A model generated the notes under the pieces. The model was not told the origin of the DNA. It saw only the letters and a list, made by a program, of their open reading frames with translations, and searched no databases. From NCBI RefSeq assembly GCF_004962245.1, contig NZ_SUHQ01000033.1, positions 1 through 64,000 on the forward strand: 64,000 nucleotides of DNA, written 5' to 3'. This document shows, one piece after another, positions 54,429 to 62,224 of this stretch (position 1 is the first letter of the stretch; the number at the start of each line of letters is the position of its first letter). Source of the stretch: Mesorhizobium sp. Its GTDB lineage: Bacteria > Pseudomonadota > Alphaproteobacteria > Rhizobiales > Rhizobiaceae. The position numbers and the translations under genes were made by a program.

Positions 54429-55232
54429 TCAGGCGGCAACTGGTTGGGTCCGCAGTTTTGCGGACCTCCAATTCCACGGCAGCAGATCATCGATCCGATG
54501 GGCCGGATAGGCGGGCAGTCGGGCGAGGACGTCGGCGAGCCAGGCCTGCGGGTCGATATCGTTCATCTTGGCGCTGACGATCAGGCTGTAGAGAACGGCA
54601 GCGCGCTGTCCGCCGCGATCGGAACCGCAGAACAGCCAGGACTTTCTGCCGAGAGCGATGCCGCGCAGGGCTCGCTCGGCTGCATTGTTCGATAGGCAAA
54701 TCCGCCCATCGTCGAGGAAGCGGGTGAAGGATGACCAGCGGCGCAGCATGTAGTTGAAGGCCTTGCTCGGATCGTGTCCGCGCGAAAGCTTGTCGCGCGT
54801 CTCGATCATCCAGCGCTCAAGCTCGGTGACTAAGCGCGCGCTCCGCTCCTGACGCACGGCGTGACGTTGGGCTGGCGACAGGCCGTTGATCTCGCGTTCG
54901 ATATCGAACAGGGCATCGATGCGCTTCACGGCTTCAACCGCCGGCGGATAGACCAGGTTGGGCTTCTCGCCGCGCGCCTTCTTGCGCGCCGCCGCTTCGA
55001 CATCGGCCAGCTCAAACACTTTGCGCCGGCTGCGGGCCCAGCAACTGGCCTCCAGAACAGGCGCCGGCTGACGACCCGTCGCATAGAGATCGCCGTAACC
55101 ACCAAAGGCATCGGCCTGCAGAATGCCGCTCCAGCCGGCGAGATGCGCCGCGGGATGTTCGCCTCGGCGATCGCGGGAATAGTAGAACACTGCCGCCGGC
55201 GGATCGGCGCCGCCGAACGGTCGGTCATCGCG
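54429..55232 (-). pseudogene. tnpC: IS66 TnpC, 3' part
   Basis: 'VFYYSRDRRGEHPAAHLAGWSGILQADAFGGYGDLYATGRQPAPVLEASCWARSRRKVFELADVEAAARKK' then 'NNAAERALRGIALGRKSWLFCGSDRGGQRAAVLYSLIVSAKMNDIDPQAWLADVLARLPAYPAHRIDDLLPWNW', the DDE core and C-terminal domain of TnpC. Its N-terminal half is at 61352-62224. Confidence 0.9.
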
Positions 55233-55623
55233 CTTATGTAGAGGTCTACATAATGCAGAGCGTTTTTAGCTTGGCGTCGCGCAGAAAGGCGGGTGGCGAG
55301 AGCGCACTGAGGCCGATCGCGGCGGTGAGCTAAAAACGTGTTGGACTAAGCCGCCGGCACGGGTGGCCGCTATGGGCGTTCAATCGAGGCGGTGCCCATG
55401 AACAGGCGTCGTGTGGTTTGGGGATGCCGTCGCGGAGGCCGCGATTGCAAGGGTCGCATGCGCCGAAGCGGCACGGATATGGGTTGCGGCAAAGTGAGGA
55501 CCGGCGTCGCGCCCTGCCGGCAGAGGCGGCCGGGGGTGACGGCGCGCAGCTTCGCGGGACCGGCTCGGTTTTCCGGCCGAACGGCTCGTGCGATGCGGTG
55601 ACGGCGAAAGCGGAGCGGTTCTT

Positions 55624-56823
55624 TCATGACGTATCCCAGTATGGCGGGGGGCCAGTGGCGCCGTCGAAGATTTCGACGATGATCATCTGGCCTTGACGAC
55701 AGGCCGGGCATTGCCTGATGCAATGACCGGTGAGATCCTCGTAGCGGTCGCGGTAGTCCCTTTCGGATGAGCCATCCGACGGCTCGGGAACCGGCATGCC
55801 GAGCAGGTCGCGGCAGTGGGCGAGCTTTTGCGCGCGGTAACGATTGCCGAGAAAGCCGTAGTAGCGGATGCGATGGAAGCCCTCGGGCAGGACGTGCAAC
55901 AAGAAGCGGCGAATGAACTCGTCGGCCGCAACGGTCATGACCTTTTGCCGATTGCCGTGCCGGTAGTCCTTCCAGCGGAAACGAACGGCGTTGTCCTCGA
56001 TGTCGATGAGACGGTTGTTGGAGATGGCGACGCGGTGCGTATAGCGCCCGACATAGTCGAGCACCTGTTCGGGTCCGGCGAAAGGCGGCTTGGCAAAGAC
56101 GACCCACTCAGCCTTTCGTAGCGGCGCCAAATAACGCCGGAAGGCGTCGCGCTCGCTCAGATGCTGCAGGCCAGAGAAAAACTGCAACTGGCTGGCGTCG
56201 AAGGCTTTCTTCAGATGTTCCAGGAACAATCGTCGGAACAGGCGTGAGAGCACCCGGATGGGCAAGAAGAAGCCGGGCTTGCAGGCGATCCATCGATTGC
56301 CGTCGGCAGACAGGCCGCCGCCGGCGACGACGCAATGCAGGTGCGGATGATGGAGCAGGTTCTGGCCCCAGGTGTGCAGCACGGCGAAGAAGCCGATCTC
56401 GGCGCCCAGGTGCTTGGGGTCGGCAGCAATGGTGCGCAGGGTCTCGGCGGCGGCACGGAAGAGCAGGCCGTAGACGAGTGCCTTGTTCTGATAGGCGATG
56501 GCGGCAATGTCGCCGGGCAGCGTGAAGACGACGTGAAAGTATTGTGTGTCGAGAAGTTCGGCGCGACGATCCTCCAGCCATTGCGCGCGGGCCAGCGACT
56601 GGCAGCGGGGGCAATGCCGGTCGCGGCAGCTGTTGAAGGCGATGCGGTTATGGCCGCAGTGATCGCACTGCTCGACATGCCCGCCGAGCGCGGCGGTCCG
56701 GCACAGTTCGATCGCCGTCATGACGCGGCGCTGGGCGGTCGACAGCGACGCGTCATGCTGCTCGCGATAGGCTTCGCCGTAGTAGCGGAAGATATCCGCC
56801 ACTTCCGGCCCCGAGCGGGCCAT
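55624..56823 (-). CDS. IS91-family HUH transposase
   Basis: 399 residues from ATG 56823 ('MARSGPEVADIFRYYGEAYREQH'); the track's extra N-terminus is another frame of the recombinase gene. Features: zinc-finger 'CDHCGHNRIAFNSCRDRHCPRCQSLARAQWLEDR', the HUH motif in 'LLHHPHLHCVVAGGGLS', and Y2-type catalytic region 'VLDYVGRYTHRVAISNNRL'. It starts rolling-circle-like transposition. It follows the recombinase gene by ten bases, forming the usual two-gene cassette. About 300 noncoding bases to 55234 complete the element. Confidence 0.88.
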   Translation of the reverse strand: MARSGPEVADIFRYYGEAYREQHDASLSTAQRRVMTAIELCRTAALGGHVEQCDHCGHNRIAFNSCRDRHCPRCQSLARAQWLEDRRAELLDTQYFHVVFTLPGDIAAIAYQNKALVYGLLFRAAAETLRTIAADPKHLGAEIGFFAVLHTWGQNLLHHPHLHCVVAGGGLSADGNRWIACKPGFFLPIRVLSRLFRRLFLEHLKKAFDASQLQFFSGLQHLSERDAFRRYLAPLRKAEWVVFAKPPFAGPEQVLDYVGRYTHRVAISNNRLIDIEDNAVRFRWKDYRHGNRQKVMTVAADEFIRRFLLHVLPEGFHRIRYYGFLGNRYRAQKLAHCRDLLGMPVPEPSDGSSERDYRDRYEDLTGHCIRQCPACRQGQMIIVEIFDGATGPPPYWDTS

Positions 56824-56833
56824 CGTCGCGCGC

Positions 56834-57715
56834 TCAGAAGTACTGAGGCTTGGCGGGTGGCGGCAGGATGGGCGCCGGACGCGGTAAGAGCTCAAAAGGG
56901 CTCGATGTGGCGCAGACCTTGTTGGTGGCGATCCGCAGGTAATGGGCGGTGGTCGCGAGGCTGCGGTGACCGAGCAGCAGTTGAATGGTGCGCACGTCGG
57001 CGCCGGCCTCCAACAGATGGACGGCGAAGGCGTGCCGCAAACTGTGCGGCGTGACCGGCTTGGACAATCCGGAGAGGTCGCGCGCTTTCGCGCAGGCTTG
57101 TCCCACCGCATCCCTGGTGATCGGCTGGCCAGCACGATCGCCGGGGAAGAGCCACGCCTCTGGGCGGCGCACCTTCCAGTAGGTGCGCAGGATCTCCAAG
57201 AGCTTGGGCGACAGCATCACGTAGCGATCCTTTTGGCCTTTGCCCTGCTCGACGCGGACGACCATCCGCTGGCTGTCGATGTCCGTGATCTTCAGCTGAA
57301 CCGCCTCCGAGATGCGCAAGCCGGCGGCGTAGCAAGTGGTCAGGACGGCGTGGTGTTTGACGTCGAGGATGCAACCGAGGAACCGCTGAACTTCCTCGGG
57401 ACTGAGGACGATCGGCAACTTCTGCGGCTTCTTGGGAAGCGGCAGGACCTCTTCAGGCGCCCAGTCCCTTTCGAGCGTCACACTGTAGAGAAAGCGCAGC
57501 GCCGCAATGGCGGTGTGAATCGAACCGGGCGACAGCTTCTTCTCATTGGTCAGATAGACCTGGTAGGTCCGAATGTCCTCGCGCCCGAGCAAGTCCGGCG
57601 ACTTGCTAAAATAGCGGGCGAACAGCGACACCTGCTGCAGATACGACAGCTGGGTGTTGAGCGCGAAGTTGCGCACCTGCATGTCCTCGCTCATGCGCTG
57701 GCGAAATTGGGTCAT
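56834..57715 (-). CDS. tyrosine recombinase (XerD-like) of the IS91-type element
   Basis: 293 residues from ATG 57715 ('MTQFRQRMSEDMQVRNFALNTQLSYLQQVSLFARYF'). SAM-like N-terminal domain, then the catalytic domain with Arg in 'YAAGLRISEAVQLKI', 'HSLRHAFAVHLLEAGADVRTIQLLLGHRSLATTAHYLRI' (HxxR, H, Tyr). These recombinases commonly accompany IS91-type transposases in rhizobia. Confidence 0.88.
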   Translation of the reverse strand: MTQFRQRMSEDMQVRNFALNTQLSYLQQVSLFARYFSKSPDLLGREDIRTYQVYLTNEKKLSPGSIHTAIAALRFLYSVTLERDWAPEEVLPLPKKPQKLPIVLSPEEVQRFLGCILDVKHHAVLTTCYAAGLRISEAVQLKITDIDSQRMVVRVEQGKGQKDRYVMLSPKLLEILRTYWKVRRPEAWLFPGDRAGQPITRDAVGQACAKARDLSGLSKPVTPHSLRHAFAVHLLEAGADVRTIQLLLGHRSLATTAHYLRIATNKVCATSSPFELLPRPAPILPPPAKPQYF

Positions 57716-58040
57716 GACAAGCTCCTTTGTCCGATGGAGGGGGCTGCAAGCAGCCACTCCATGCTGACGCAGTCGGAGCTTGTTGTGGACACATGACCAG
57801 CGCGACAGACGACGCGATCAGATCACGCTGTCGGCACTCACCCTCCTTGCCGCTCCGCATTCGCGGAGCGGGTTAGTCCAAGCGCGATTATGCGCACCCC
57901 GTGATTATGCGCAGCTCGCCCGGGACAGTCAGCCAATTTTCTGCGGCAGATCAGTGAGATGGTGGCCGGCACTAAAACTCTGCGGTGCGCATAATCCTGG
58001 TGTTTCCTTCCGGGTCTAATCAACTCGGTAGGAGATCAGC

Positions 58041-59288
58041 ATGCAAAAAGCGATCATCCTTCAGCCACAGCCCCGCGCTTGGCTGGAGGGCAGTATTCTT
58101 CGGCCCTACGTTTCTCAGTACAGGGAGCACTTGCAGCGAAGGCGATATGCGCCGAGCACGCAGCGCGCCTATCTGTGCTGCGTCGCCCACTTCGCCCAAT
58201 GGCTGACTCAGGAAAGGTGCGACCTGGAAGCGATCGGCCAAAGCGCCGTTATGCGCTTTCTCTCGGAACACCTGCCAGCGTGCGCCTGTCCCGACCCGGT
58301 CCGTCGTTTGCGCCATGAGCTGCAGGCGGCGTTGGGCCTTCTTTTGAAGGTACTCGAAGCCGGCGGAGTGGTGCTGAACTATCCGGCCCGCAATCCTTCC
58401 ATCGAACAGGAGTTGACGCACTTCGATACCCACATGCGCGACGTCTGGGGCCTGGCGGAGAACACCCGTCGGAAGCGTTGCAGAGTGGTCGGAGGATTTC
58501 TTGTCGAGCATTTCGGCGAGCAGCCGATCTCCCTGGCGACAGTCAGCGCTGCATCCATCCGCCGCTTCGTCCTTGGTGAACAGGGGCGAAGGCCCACCAC
58601 CGTCGCAGCGATCGGCGTCATCATTGGCTGCTATCTCCGCTTCCGCAGCATGTCCGGCGACAGGGTGAACGAACTGAAGGCCGCGATTCCCCGGGTCGCG
58701 CACTGGCGGTTGGCATCATTGCCAGAGGTGCTGACCGACGCCGAGATCGACGAACTGCTGATTTCCTTTGATCAGTCGTTCCCGTCGCGCCTGCGGGCTT
58801 ATGCGATGGTGCGGTGTCTGATCGATCTCGGTCTGCGATCCAGCGAAGTCGTCAAGCTGCAGCTTGATGACGTCAACTGGGCCGATGGCACGATCAACCT
58901 TGTCGGCACCAAGAGCCGACGCGCTGATGCTCTGCCCCTGCCGTCCGCAACGGGAGCGGCGATTGCGGCCTATCTGCGCGAGGAGCGGCCCGCGACATCG
59001 AACCGGGCCATGTTTGTTCGCCATGTTGCTCCCTACGACGAACCGATCACGACCAAGAGCGTCAAACGCGCGGTGCTGGCCGGCTACCGAAGATGTGGAT
59101 GGACGCGGACCGGTGTCCACATTCTCCGCCACAGCATGGCTAGCCGACTTCTGCGCGCCGGCGCGCCGATGAAGGAGATTGCGGACATCCTGCGGCATCG
59201 AAGCCTCAACACGTCCGCCATCTACGCAAAGGTCGATCTGACCAATCTTGCAGCCGTAGCCCTGCCCTGGCCGGGGAGCGCGCAATGA
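58041..59288 (+). CDS. RIT tyrosine recombinase, first gene
   Basis: 415 residues. N-terminal SAM-like domain ('RPYVSQYREHLQRRRYAPSTQRAYLCCVAHFAQWL'), catalytic domain with Arg in 'IDLGLRSSEVVKLQLDDVNW', 'TGVHILRHSMASRLLRAGAPMKEIADILRHRSLNTSAIYAKVD' (HxxR, His, Tyr). The stop overlaps the next start as ATGA. The protein should act together with the other two recombinases. Confidence 0.9.
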   Translation: MQKAIILQPQPRAWLEGSILRPYVSQYREHLQRRRYAPSTQRAYLCCVAHFAQWLTQERCDLEAIGQSAVMRFLSEHLPACACPDPVRRLRHELQAALGLLLKVLEAGGVVLNYPARNPSIEQELTHFDTHMRDVWGLAENTRRKRCRVVGGFLVEHFGEQPISLATVSAASIRRFVLGEQGRRPTTVAAIGVIIGCYLRFRSMSGDRVNELKAAIPRVAHWRLASLPEVLTDAEIDELLISFDQSFPSRLRAYAMVRCLIDLGLRSSEVVKLQLDDVNWADGTINLVGTKSRRADALPLPSATGAAIAAYLREERPATSNRAMFVRHVAPYDEPITTKSVKRAVLAGYRRCGWTRTGVHILRHSMASRLLRAGAPMKEIADILRHRSLNTSAIYAKVDLTNLAAVALPWPGSAQ

Positions 59289-60248
59289 CCGGCGCGCGCA
59301 CCATGCTCTCGCTGGCCAAGGACTATTTGTCCGAACGCCGCGCCCTTGGTTTCGACCTCAGGATGGAGGGCCATCAAATCACAAGCTTCGCCCTGTTCGC
59401 CGACGCGCGCGGTCATAGTGGCCCGCTCACCAACGATCTCGTCCTGAACTGGGTGCAGGGTCAGGCCAAACGAGCCAGCCCCTTCTCATGGGCCCGGCGC
59501 CTCGAGGTCCTTCGCCCGTTCGCGAGGTATCTGGCGCAGCTCGATCCCGGCACCGAGTTCCCACAAATCGCGACCTTTGGTCGTTCACACCGCCGCCTCA
59601 CGCCGCACATCTATTCAGAGCAGGAGATCTGCGACCTTGTGGCCGCCGCTTCGCGCCTAGCCCCCAAGGGCGGATTGCGGCCGGCAATCTACGCGACAAT
59701 CTTCGGGCTGATCGCCGCTACGGGTCTGCGCCGATCGGAAGCGCTCCACCTGCGCTGCGGCGATGTCGATCTCGACGGAGCGTTCCTTACGGTTCGGAAC
59801 ACGAAGTTCCCGCAAGTCCAGGCATGTTTCCATACACGCCACCGTCGTGGCCGAGCTACGGCGCTATCTGGCGGTTCGGGCGCGTCATGGTGCGCCCACC
59901 GAGGACTCACCGCTGTTCCTGTCTCCGGCGGGCGGATTCATCGCGAAGCGGAGGATCAATAAGGTTTTCCAGAAGCTTCGCACCAACCTTGGTTGGACCG
60001 TGCGGGGCGGCCATGGCGAGGTGCGCATTCACGACCTGCGCCACACCTTCATTTGCCGCCGTATCCAGCTCTGGCACGAGCATGGCGCCGATATCGACAA
60101 CGCAATGGCGGCGCTCTCAACCTACGTCGGCCACGCCAAGATCTCCGATACCTATTGGTATCTGACCGGCGTCCCGGAACTCATGGCGGTCGCTGGCAAA
60201 CGGTTCCAGCTGTTCGCCTCTATGGTTGGAGGGGATCATCATGACTGA
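59285..60248 (+). pseudogene. RIT tyrosine recombinase, second gene, frameshifted
   Basis: 'MTGARTMLSLAKDYLSERRALGFDLRMEGHQITSFALFADARGH' to 'ATGLRRSEALHLRCGDVDLDGAFLTVRNTKF', then a one-base insertion near 59808 (TTCCCGCAAG) moves the reading; it continues 'RKSRHVSIHATVVAELRRYLAVRARHG' to 'IHDLRHTFICRRIQLWHEHGADIDNAMAALSTYVGHAKISDTYWYLTG'. All catalytic residues exist across the two frames. It overlaps both neighbours, as usual for RIT elements. Confidence 0.85.
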
Positions 60249-61251
60249 TCCCAAGCTGACACCGTCCTTCCCCAGCCTGCTTCAACGCTTTTTCGTCGAG
60301 TATCTCGGCAATCAGCGAGCCGTCAGCTCGCGCACCATCGCCGCCTACCGCGATACCTTCCGATTGTTGCTTGACTTCGCCGAGGCGACGATTGGAAAGG
60401 CGCCCACCCGGCTGACCCTGGCCGACCTCGATGCGCAGTTGATTCTGAGCTTCCTCGACCACTTGGAGAAGGAGCGGAGCAACGGCGTTCGTACGCGCAA
60501 CGCCCGCCTGGCGGCGCTTCGCTCTTTCTTTAAGTATGCCGCCCACTACGACCTGACCGCGCTCTCCGTCATCGAACAGGTGCTGGCCATTCCGATGAAA
60601 CGGTTCGACCGGCCGGTCCTGGGATTTTTGTCACGCGAGGAGATGCAGGCGATCCTTGACGCGCCGGATGCGCGGACCTGGGCGGGTGAGAGGGATCGCG
60701 CACTGTTCAGCCTGATGTACAACACCGGTGCCCGCGTGTCTGAAGCAATCGGCCTGCGCGTCGGCGAGGTCGTCATCGATGGCTCGGCTGTCGCGCACCT
60801 GCATGGAAAGGGGCGCAAAGACCGCAGCGTGCCGCTCTGGCGTACGACCGCCAACCTGATCCGCAACTGGAAGCGCCGGTTGGACTGCGCGGACGAGAAG
60901 AACTTCCTGTTTCCGAACCGGGGCGGAGGATGCATGGCGCGTTCGAACGTCACCCAGCGCCTTGAACTTGCGGTCTCGGCCGCCGAGGAACGTTACCCGC
61001 AACTCGCGCGTCGCTCGATTTCGCCCCACACCATCCGCCACACCACGGCGATGCATCTCCTGCAATCCGGCGTCGATATCAGCGTCATCGCCCTGTGGCT
61101 GGGTCATGAGAGCCCCGCCACGACGCACATGTACCTTCAGGCGGATCTCGCCATGAAGGAGCGCACGCTCAACCGACTGTTGCCCATGACGGCCCGTCAA
61201 GGCCGGTATCGGCCGCCGGACCAGCTCATGCAGTTCCTGATGAGCCTTTGA
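60241..61251 (+). CDS. RIT tyrosine recombinase, third gene
   Basis: 336 residues from ATG 60241 ('MTDPKLTPSFPSLLQRFFVEYLGNQRAVSSRTIAAYRDTFRLLL'), overlapping the previous stop by eight bases. Catalytic motifs: 'YNTGARVSEAIGLRVGEV', 'ISPHTIRHTTAMHLLQSGVDISVIALWLGHESPATTHMYLQADL'. Its stop codon directly precedes the first right-end ATTATGCGCA site. Confidence 0.9.
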   Translation: MTDPKLTPSFPSLLQRFFVEYLGNQRAVSSRTIAAYRDTFRLLLDFAEATIGKAPTRLTLADLDAQLILSFLDHLEKERSNGVRTRNARLAALRSFFKYAAHYDLTALSVIEQVLAIPMKRFDRPVLGFLSREEMQAILDAPDARTWAGERDRALFSLMYNTGARVSEAIGLRVGEVVIDGSAVAHLHGKGRKDRSVPLWRTTANLIRNWKRRLDCADEKNFLFPNRGGGCMARSNVTQRLELAVSAAEERYPQLARRSISPHTIRHTTAMHLLQSGVDISVIALWLGHESPATTHMYLQADLAMKERTLNRLLPMTARQGRYRPPDQLMQFLMSL

Positions 61252-61351
61252 ATTATGCGCAGTTCGCCAGCCGGAAATCGTCCGAGAATCCGATGGTTAC
61301 AAGCTCCTGTCCCGGTGAGCTGCGCATAATCATCGGGTGCGCATAATCGCG

Positions 61352-62224
61352 CACATAGGTCCATAATCGACCGGTATCGGTCTTGCCCTTGGCCAGGACC
61401 GGCACCGTCGTGTCGTCGCCGTGCAGACGTCAAGCGGCCAGCACATGGGCTTCGAGCCGCTTGAACAGCGGCATCAGCGCCGCGGCGCCGGCGCCGACCT
61501 GGTCGGCGAGCGTCGACAGGCTGAGCGGCACACCTTCGCGGGCATAGCGTTCGGCCTGGCGGTTGAGCGGCTGATGCTGGCCGAACTTCTCGAACAGGAT
61601 CATCGCCAGCAAGCCGGGACCGGCCCAGCCGCGCGGGGTGGCGTGGAACGGCGCCGGAGCCTGGCTGATCGTCTCGCAGTCGCGGCAGGTGAACTTCTCC
61701 CGCACGTGCTGGATCACCTTCCATTGCCGCGGCACCACCTCCAGCGTCTCGGTGATATCCTCACCCAGCTTGCGCAGCCGATGACCGCCGCAGCAATGGC
61801 AAGCGGCCGGCGCCGGCTCGACCACGCGTTCGCGCGGCAGGTGCTCTGGAAATGGCTCGCGCGCCGGTCGTTTGCGCACATAAGGCGCCACCTCGGTGGT
61901 CCGGGCCGCGGCCTGTTCGGCGGCGATCTCGTCTTCCGTCGCGGTGCTCTCGAGTTCCTCGAAGGTGAGCTCCATCTGGTCGTGCAGGCGGGCTGAGCGT
62001 TCAGAACTCTGACCATGCAGCGCCCGCTGCAGCTTGCGGATCGTCAGATCCTGATGTGCGATCAGCGCCGCATCATCCGATGCCTTGGCTCTGGCGACCG
62101 CCAGTTCGGCCTCGACCAGCGCAGCGCGCGCGGCCTCATCTTGGGCTCTGGCCAGCGCCGCGGTCAGCGCCGCTCTCAGCGCGCCAATATCGTCCGGAAC
62201 AGCATCCTGGGCGGTGGCAACCAT
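61352..62224 (-). pseudogene. tnpC: IS66 TnpC, 5' part
   Basis: 'MVATAQDAVPDDIGALRAALTAALARAQDEAARAALVEAELAVARAKASDDAALIAHQDLTIRKLQRALHGQSSERSARLHDQMELTFEELE' (coiled coil), zinc-binding 'ACHCCGGHRLRKLGED', 'FTCRDCETISQAPAP', then 'FGQHQPLNRQAERYAREGVPLSLSTLADQVGAGAAALMPLFKRLEAHVLAA', a stop, and 'RLHGDDTTVPVLAKGKTDTGRLWTYVR' before the RIT end. The 3' part is at 54429. Confidence 0.9.

Follow-up and report, generated by a model that had tools for sequence, protein, structure and literature searches.

Introduction

RIT elements are known for the gene order ritA-ritB-ritC, short gene overlaps, a length of about 3.5 kb, terminal inverted repeats and insertion in IS66 genes (Van Houdt 2009; Ricker 2013; Van Houdt 2012, PMC3414803; insertion into IS66 also in PMC2864759), and the element analyzed here resembles them in all these respects. 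Their ends have been described as a 28-9 bp inverted repeat with an overlapping palindromic sequence and no convincing pattern of binding sites (PMC3414803), and RitA as a protein with two sequential core-binding domains (PMC8138268). Target specificity and the empty site of RITs are listed as not tested (PMC10214605). In the parts of the published RIT accounts that were available, the three terminal sites called S1, S2 and S3 below are not resolved, and neither a one-sided palindrome moving with the element nor a 6-bp crossover is mentioned. How three recombinases move a RIT has been an open question since 2009, and the literature calls the three-enzyme reaction hard to understand.

Strand-biased circularizing integrative elements (SEs) and GInts resemble RITs in their specific targets, in an operon that encodes several tyrosine recombinases and in inverted repeats that enclose a 6-bp spacer. 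SEs are described as carrying the 6 bp of the circle at one end and those of the target at the other (PMC10214605), a placement that RITs may share. SEs differ from RITs by their intA-tfp-intB-srap gene set with two catalytic recombinases and, in the portion of their description available, by the lack of a separate palindromic end, whereas RITs have three catalytic recombinases and a palindrome, hereafter P. Tn554 likewise uses more than one tyrosine recombinase acting together, a specific target, a 6-bp footprint and imperfect terminal inverted repeats; unlike RITs, it encodes TnpA, TnpB and the non-recombinase TnpC, and the accessible part of its description reports no P. Conjugative transposons of the Tn916 type share with RITs 6-bp coupling sequences between inverted half-sites; they differ by a single Int with Xis and arm sites, and have neither a recombinase trio nor P.

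The comparison presented here defines where RITs truly end and exactly which sites they target in other mobile elements, along with a polarity of the 6 bp and a minimal attachment core composed of a P half-site, 6 bp and S1. With ends and core defined, excision, the circle junction and site binding become testable with specific constructs, and a simple signature is gained by which RIT ends, solo palindromes and non-autonomous derivatives can be annotated. Our literature search found no prior description of the exact layout, of the co-mobility of P, of the 6-bp polarity or of a P side fixed by the target; Ricker 2013 was outside this comparison and priority is uncertain.

The RIT element of the window

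The window is the whole 64-kb stretch of Mesorhizobium DNA that was analyzed. The features of the RIT and its surroundings are as follows:

55228..55233, + strand: outer 6-bp spacer, TCGCGC; together with its direct repeat at 61347-61352 it encloses the entire insertion; one copy in intact IS66 tnpC
55234..55253, no strand: TTATGTAGAGGTCTACATAA, palindrome P, built of two abutted half-sites and forming the distal end of the mobile unit; absent from intact IS66
55254..57881, - strand: nested IS91-type element with a Y2 transposase and its own tyrosine recombinase; other copies share the junction
57882..57887, + strand: inner 6-bp spacer GCGCGA between P and RIT
57888..57897, + strand: S1 of the ritA end, TTATGCGCAC; conserved in the family
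57905..57914, + strand: S2 of the ritA end, TTATGCGCAG; repeats S1 in direct orientation, 17 bp further in
57985..57994, - strand: S3 of the ritA end, TTATGCGCAC inverted
58041..59288, + strand: ritA, tyrosine recombinase of 415 aa with two N-terminal helical core-binding domains and a catalytic domain
59285..60248, + strand: ritB, tyrosine recombinase whose frame is disrupted by one inserted base at about 59809-59811
60241..61251, + strand: ritC, tyrosine recombinase of 336 aa
61253..61262, + strand: S3 of the ritC end, TTATGCGCAG, inverted relative to S1 and S2 of that end; immediately 3' of the ritC stop
61320..61329, - strand: S2 of the ritC end, TTATGCGCAG
61337..61346, - strand: S1 of the ritC end, TTATGCGCAC
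61347..61352, + strand: 6-bp spacer of the target junction, TCGCGC, which repeats 55228-55233 in direct orientation
61353..62224, - strand: target, 5' part of the interrupted IS66 tnpC; remainder at 54429-55227

The original prediction of a RIT element is borne out by the adjacent, overlapping ritA, ritB and ritC genes (overlaps of 4 bp for ritA/ritB and 8 bp for ritB/ritC), by the span of 3,459 bp from S1 to S1 (57888-61346; about 3.5 kb is usual) and by a terminal inverted repeat of 42 nt that is 90% complementary (57882-57923 / 61311-61352; about 28-34 bp is usual). Its interval of 57883-61351 leaves out P at 55234-55253, which belongs to a larger mobile unit. Its three recombinase genes do overlap end to end, with ritB being frameshifted. 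We observed exactly six matches to ATTATGCGCA in the window (57887+, 57904+, 57986-, 61252+, 61321- and 61338-), all mirror-placed within the RIT termini, where about 0.12 exact matches are expected for a 10-mer; allowing one mismatch added just 2 matches. These six exact copies confirm the predicted arrangement of two direct sites and one inverted site per end.

The ritB insertion (TTCCCGC in the window versus TTCCGC in the relatives L005, L007 and L122) splits the frame, intact at this point in close relatives, into ORFs of 225 aa and 161 aa. The window RitB is cut before the H-x-x-R...Y part, which the intact RitB of L122 possesses; the catalytic residues R-K-H-R-H-Y are invariant in the RitA and RitC alignments. 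Since ritB carries this insertion, the window copy is probably non-autonomous, with intact RitB needed in trans. A search of the same Mesorhizobium genome found no second RIT copy. In an AlphaFold2 model, the window RitA has two helical N-terminal domains (about 9-107 and 119-204; pLDDT mostly >80, with two blocks at 64-69), in keeping with two core-binding domains; the model of the catalytic domain is poor. Three recombinase genes of the RitA/B/C type are the only genes between the ends, and neither the intA-tfp-intB-srap set of SEs and GInts nor the TnpA, TnpB, TnpC set of Tn554 was found there.

Many beta-proteobacterial RitA proteins (L030, L041, L076) measure about 328 aa and are devoid of the first core-binding domain, contrary to the published two-domain description.

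Palindrome P and a nested element in the IS66 target

Intact IS66 tnpC reads CCTATGT-GCGCGA-TGACC around the insertion point, the 6-mer being present as a single copy, GCGCGA on the other strand. In the window, CCTATGT-GCGCGA is followed by S1 and the RIT on one side, and P precedes GCGCGA-TGACC on the other. The IS91-type element sits precisely at the point where P (CATAA) would otherwise meet the inner spacer, so that the palindromic sequence expected beside the inverted repeat of a RIT is present here, displaced by this element. The RIT and P would have entered IS66 tnpC first, and the IS91-type element later, between the two.

The IS91-type element is bounded by TGCAGAGCG and GTTAGTCCAA and has a tyrosine recombinase of its own (55254-57881; L135-L142, L241). 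Most of its copies on rhizobial plasmids directly adjoin the CATAA/CATAG of P or of a RIT end. It adjoins a RIT end in L016, L136, L138, L139, L141 and the window, and separates P from the RIT in L136, L138 and the window, as if targeting RIT attachment cores. L136 (Mesorhizobium sp. NZP2077 plasmid) carries a composite of IS66, P, IS91-type element, RIT and IS66 similar in layout to the window; its RitC is only about 40% identical to that of the window or of L041, and the two were apparently assembled independently. Plasmid copies of the IS91-type element begin next to P, which was the basis for initially reading P as a terminus of this element. That reading was ruled out, as the element lies beside different P sequences or beside a RIT end.

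The S1/S2/S3 and P layout across the RIT family

A RitC-based scan gave 80 loci and was extended by whole-genome and plasmid searches; ends were aligned from outside to inside. In the 63 dereplicated RITs used for the S1/S2 comparison, the consensus consists of S1, TTATGnnnAG, and S2, a direct copy exactly 17 bp inside. Identity to the S1 8-mer reached 0.80 at lag 17, and every other lag between 6 and 30 gave 0.15-0.34, in samples made non-independent by relatedness and with S1 and S2 counts conditional on the TTATG motif used for anchoring (the palindrome and ORF tests are independent of this motif). An inverted S3 with exact TTATG was present in 102/114 ends, versus 1.3% of coding windows. 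Its offsets cluster at 63, 72-74, 83-87 and 93-96 bp inside, and these steps of about 10-11 bp suggest that S3 stays on one helical face, although a similar score is reached by other periods near 10-12. Within an element the variable triplets match (identity 0.55-0.67); between elements they do not (0.31), which is the behaviour expected of sites following their recombinase.

The original prediction had proposed comparing other RIT ends and would have been refuted by relatives lacking the repeats. It withstands this check: we found S1, S2 and S3 conserved down to 31-40% RitC identity and also in Actinobacteria, with the layout present in Rhodococcus (RitC 31% identical) and in the Gammaproteobacteria L244 and L245. 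No matching ends were found for the E. coli plasmid relative L243.

P is a 20-bp sequence located 6 bp outside S1, usually on one side, and consists of two abutted half-sites (TTATGnnnAG followed by CTnnnCATAA, or a palindromic variant). Among the 55 elements with both flanks readable, 41 have a palindrome matching at >=7/10 positions at precisely -26..-7, one-sided in 35 and two-sided in 6, against a background of 0.7% per position. P is visible with a lower score or a shift in L019 and L024 and was not recognisable in L040, L063 and L064. Its presence on both sides in the short contigs L033 and L039 may reflect metagenome misassembly of repeats. Taken together, these comparisons show the layout of S1, S2, S3 and P to be a family trait.

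The original prediction saw a suggestive correspondence between the three sites per end and the three recombinases; on such a reading, RitA, RitB and RitC would each occupy one of S1, S2 and S3. This accounts for the matching numbers of conserved sites and enzymes, and in beta-proteobacterial RITs the S1 triplet often differs from those of S2 and S3. The triplet identities of 0.61 for S1-S2, 0.60 for S2-S3 and 0.55 for S1-S3 do not, however, define three distinct classes, and similarity among S2, S3 and the P halves is no lower than that between S1 and S2. P moreover provides two further half-sites of the same kind on one side, so that the number is not three per end. The site pattern is also invariant while RitA has one or two core-binding domains, a DNA-binding domain being lost without any change in the sites. 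We consider a one-to-one assignment unlikely. A match between the two core-binding domains of RitA and the tandem S1/S2 was ruled out separately, one-domain RitA coexisting with unchanged S1 and S2.

S1-S3 could also serve mainly as operators for rit expression instead of recombination sites, and the S3 of the ritA end does precede ritA by about 46 bp. Nevertheless, the ritC end, at which no rit gene begins, has these three sites in mirror image, S1 borders directly on the exact 6-bp junction, and all of them resemble the P halves; we regard a mainly regulatory function as very improbable. A dual role in recombination and rit control is possible.

RIT and P as one mobile unit

When the flanks were joined with the RIT, inner 6 bp and P left out, target reading frames were restored with a single 6-bp spacer: IS66 TnpC (L010, L203, L213, L214, L218, L219, L237, L238, L240), IS66 TnpB (L194), IS21 IstA (L199, L211), an ArdC-like protein (L189), strawberry-notch-like helicases (L192, L208) and DUF3489 (L205). 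These reconstructions show insertion into a specific target around a 6-bp spacer.

In Sphingobium herbicidovorans MH, a 100% identical RIT with P occurs on two plasmids, each time in a different IS66 gene. The identity block stops at S1 on one side, and on the other takes in P and the outer 6 bp (CCGTAA), while the 6 bp on the S1 side differ, CCGAAA versus GCGGAA. The limits of this block argue, therefore, that P arrives with the element together with the P-side 6 bp, and that the S1-side 6 bp belong to the target. This polarity is directly proven in the one pair of copies (L213/L214); elsewhere the sequences are consistent with it and ambiguous, owing to the similarity between the 6 bp of donor and target.

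P might instead be a pre-existing chromosomal palindrome used as a landing site, with the RIT alone being mobile. Solo P sequences without an adjacent RIT in RIT-bearing genomes, and the several elements with P on both sides, could be read in this way. Against this, intact IS66, IS21, ardC and helicase genes have no P and are restored by the joint removal of RIT and P, identical RIT copies have entered different IS66 genes with an unchanged P and outer 6 bp, and GGCC-P-GGCC is sparse (6/61 genomes of one genus). A landing site appears extremely improbable, and the empty sites and identical Sphingobium copies rule out P as a pre-existing genomic repeat. Since identical RITs at different sites carry the same P, the comparison shows that RIT and P move together and that the mobile unit consists of RIT, inner 6 bp and P.

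Orientation of P relative to target and genes

In IS66 TnpC targets, P always lies toward the KN-LFAG (downstream) side, with either the ritA or the ritC end adjoining; in IS21 IstA targets, it always lies toward the upstream side, again with either gene end adjoining. The alignments of these loci show that the side of P is fixed relative to a given target, regardless of the direction of ritABC. In addition, 100% identical, internally deleted RITs of 1,647 bp at two loci of one genome (L102:4731-6377, L103:3020-4666) have P at opposite gene ends. The orientation pattern fits a circle with a central P in which either adjacent core can be used, or an inversion of the RIT between its two cores, since inversion in situ would likewise switch the gene end facing P.

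A third internally deleted derivative, of 1,316 bp, is found at L105:4601-5916. The L102, L103 and L105 derivatives have intact ends and P and are apparently non-autonomous.

Proposed mechanism of RIT movement

The usual core of a tyrosine recombinase consists of inverted half-sites around a 6-bp crossover. Every P-RIT junction reads CATAA-N6-TTATG or the element's own variant, and the Rit recombinases would cut at the edges of this 6-bp crossover. S1 and the P halves would be the core (cleavage) half-sites, and S2 and the helically phased S3 accessory sites at which the three recombinases would build a synapse. In the predicted donor circle, P would join both RIT ends as a large palindrome, S2-S1-N6-P-N6-S1-S2. 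The putative attP would be P half-site-N6-S1 and the putative attB X-N6-Y. Recombination of either core beside P with the target core X-N6-Y would then give X-N6-S1...RIT...N6-P-N6-Y, with ritABC in either orientation; the 6 bp of the circle would stay beside P and those of the target would land beside S1, as in SE elements. This SE and GInt placement fits the one pair of identical RIT copies, assuming the proposed circle. Judged from these sequence patterns, the overall explanation, namely a mobile unit of RIT, 6 bp and P, a circular intermediate and core exchange at the 6-bp spacer, is likely correct.

The placement of the 6 bp hints, by analogy with SEs, at a strand-biased exchange. A conservative double-strand excision and integration with Tn916-like coupling sequences, instead of a strand-biased copy-out, would also produce the difference between donor and target 6 bp at the two junctions, as heteroduplex coupling sequences resolved after replication, and agrees with empty sites that are precise and readily reconstructed. 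In the one decisive pair, on the other hand, the donor 6 bp are found beside P in both copies, which amounts to a bias of the kind described for SEs, in numbers too small to decide. We give conservative exchange a substantial chance, somewhat short of even. Returning to strand-biased exchange, we tentatively propose, with slightly less than even confidence, that RITs are transposons with a detachable 20-bp palindromic end, whose circle junction would be a palindrome of about 110 bp centred on P with two equivalent cores, and in which the three recombinases would act on S1, S2 and S3 in a strand-biased 6-bp exchange. If true, such a circle with detachable P would explain why the side of P is fixed at a target with the genes pointing either way.

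Solo palindromes and particular lineages

Solo P palindromes with inverted 6-mer flanks and no adjacent RIT were observed at L104, L108, L109, L112, L113, L114, L115, L118, L125, L126 and L130; they may be excision footprints or remnants. In L005 and L122, two RITs of the window lineage, inverted IS66 5' halves lie on both sides without P, which suggests rearrangement through RIT ends. Another lineage (L017, L022, L024, L027, L032, L037) targets a small conserved gene (..HEYDPW) at its 3' end, and a similar C-terminus (HDYDPFEIM) is restored by S1 of the element; L037 has inverted copies of this gene end as its two flanks.
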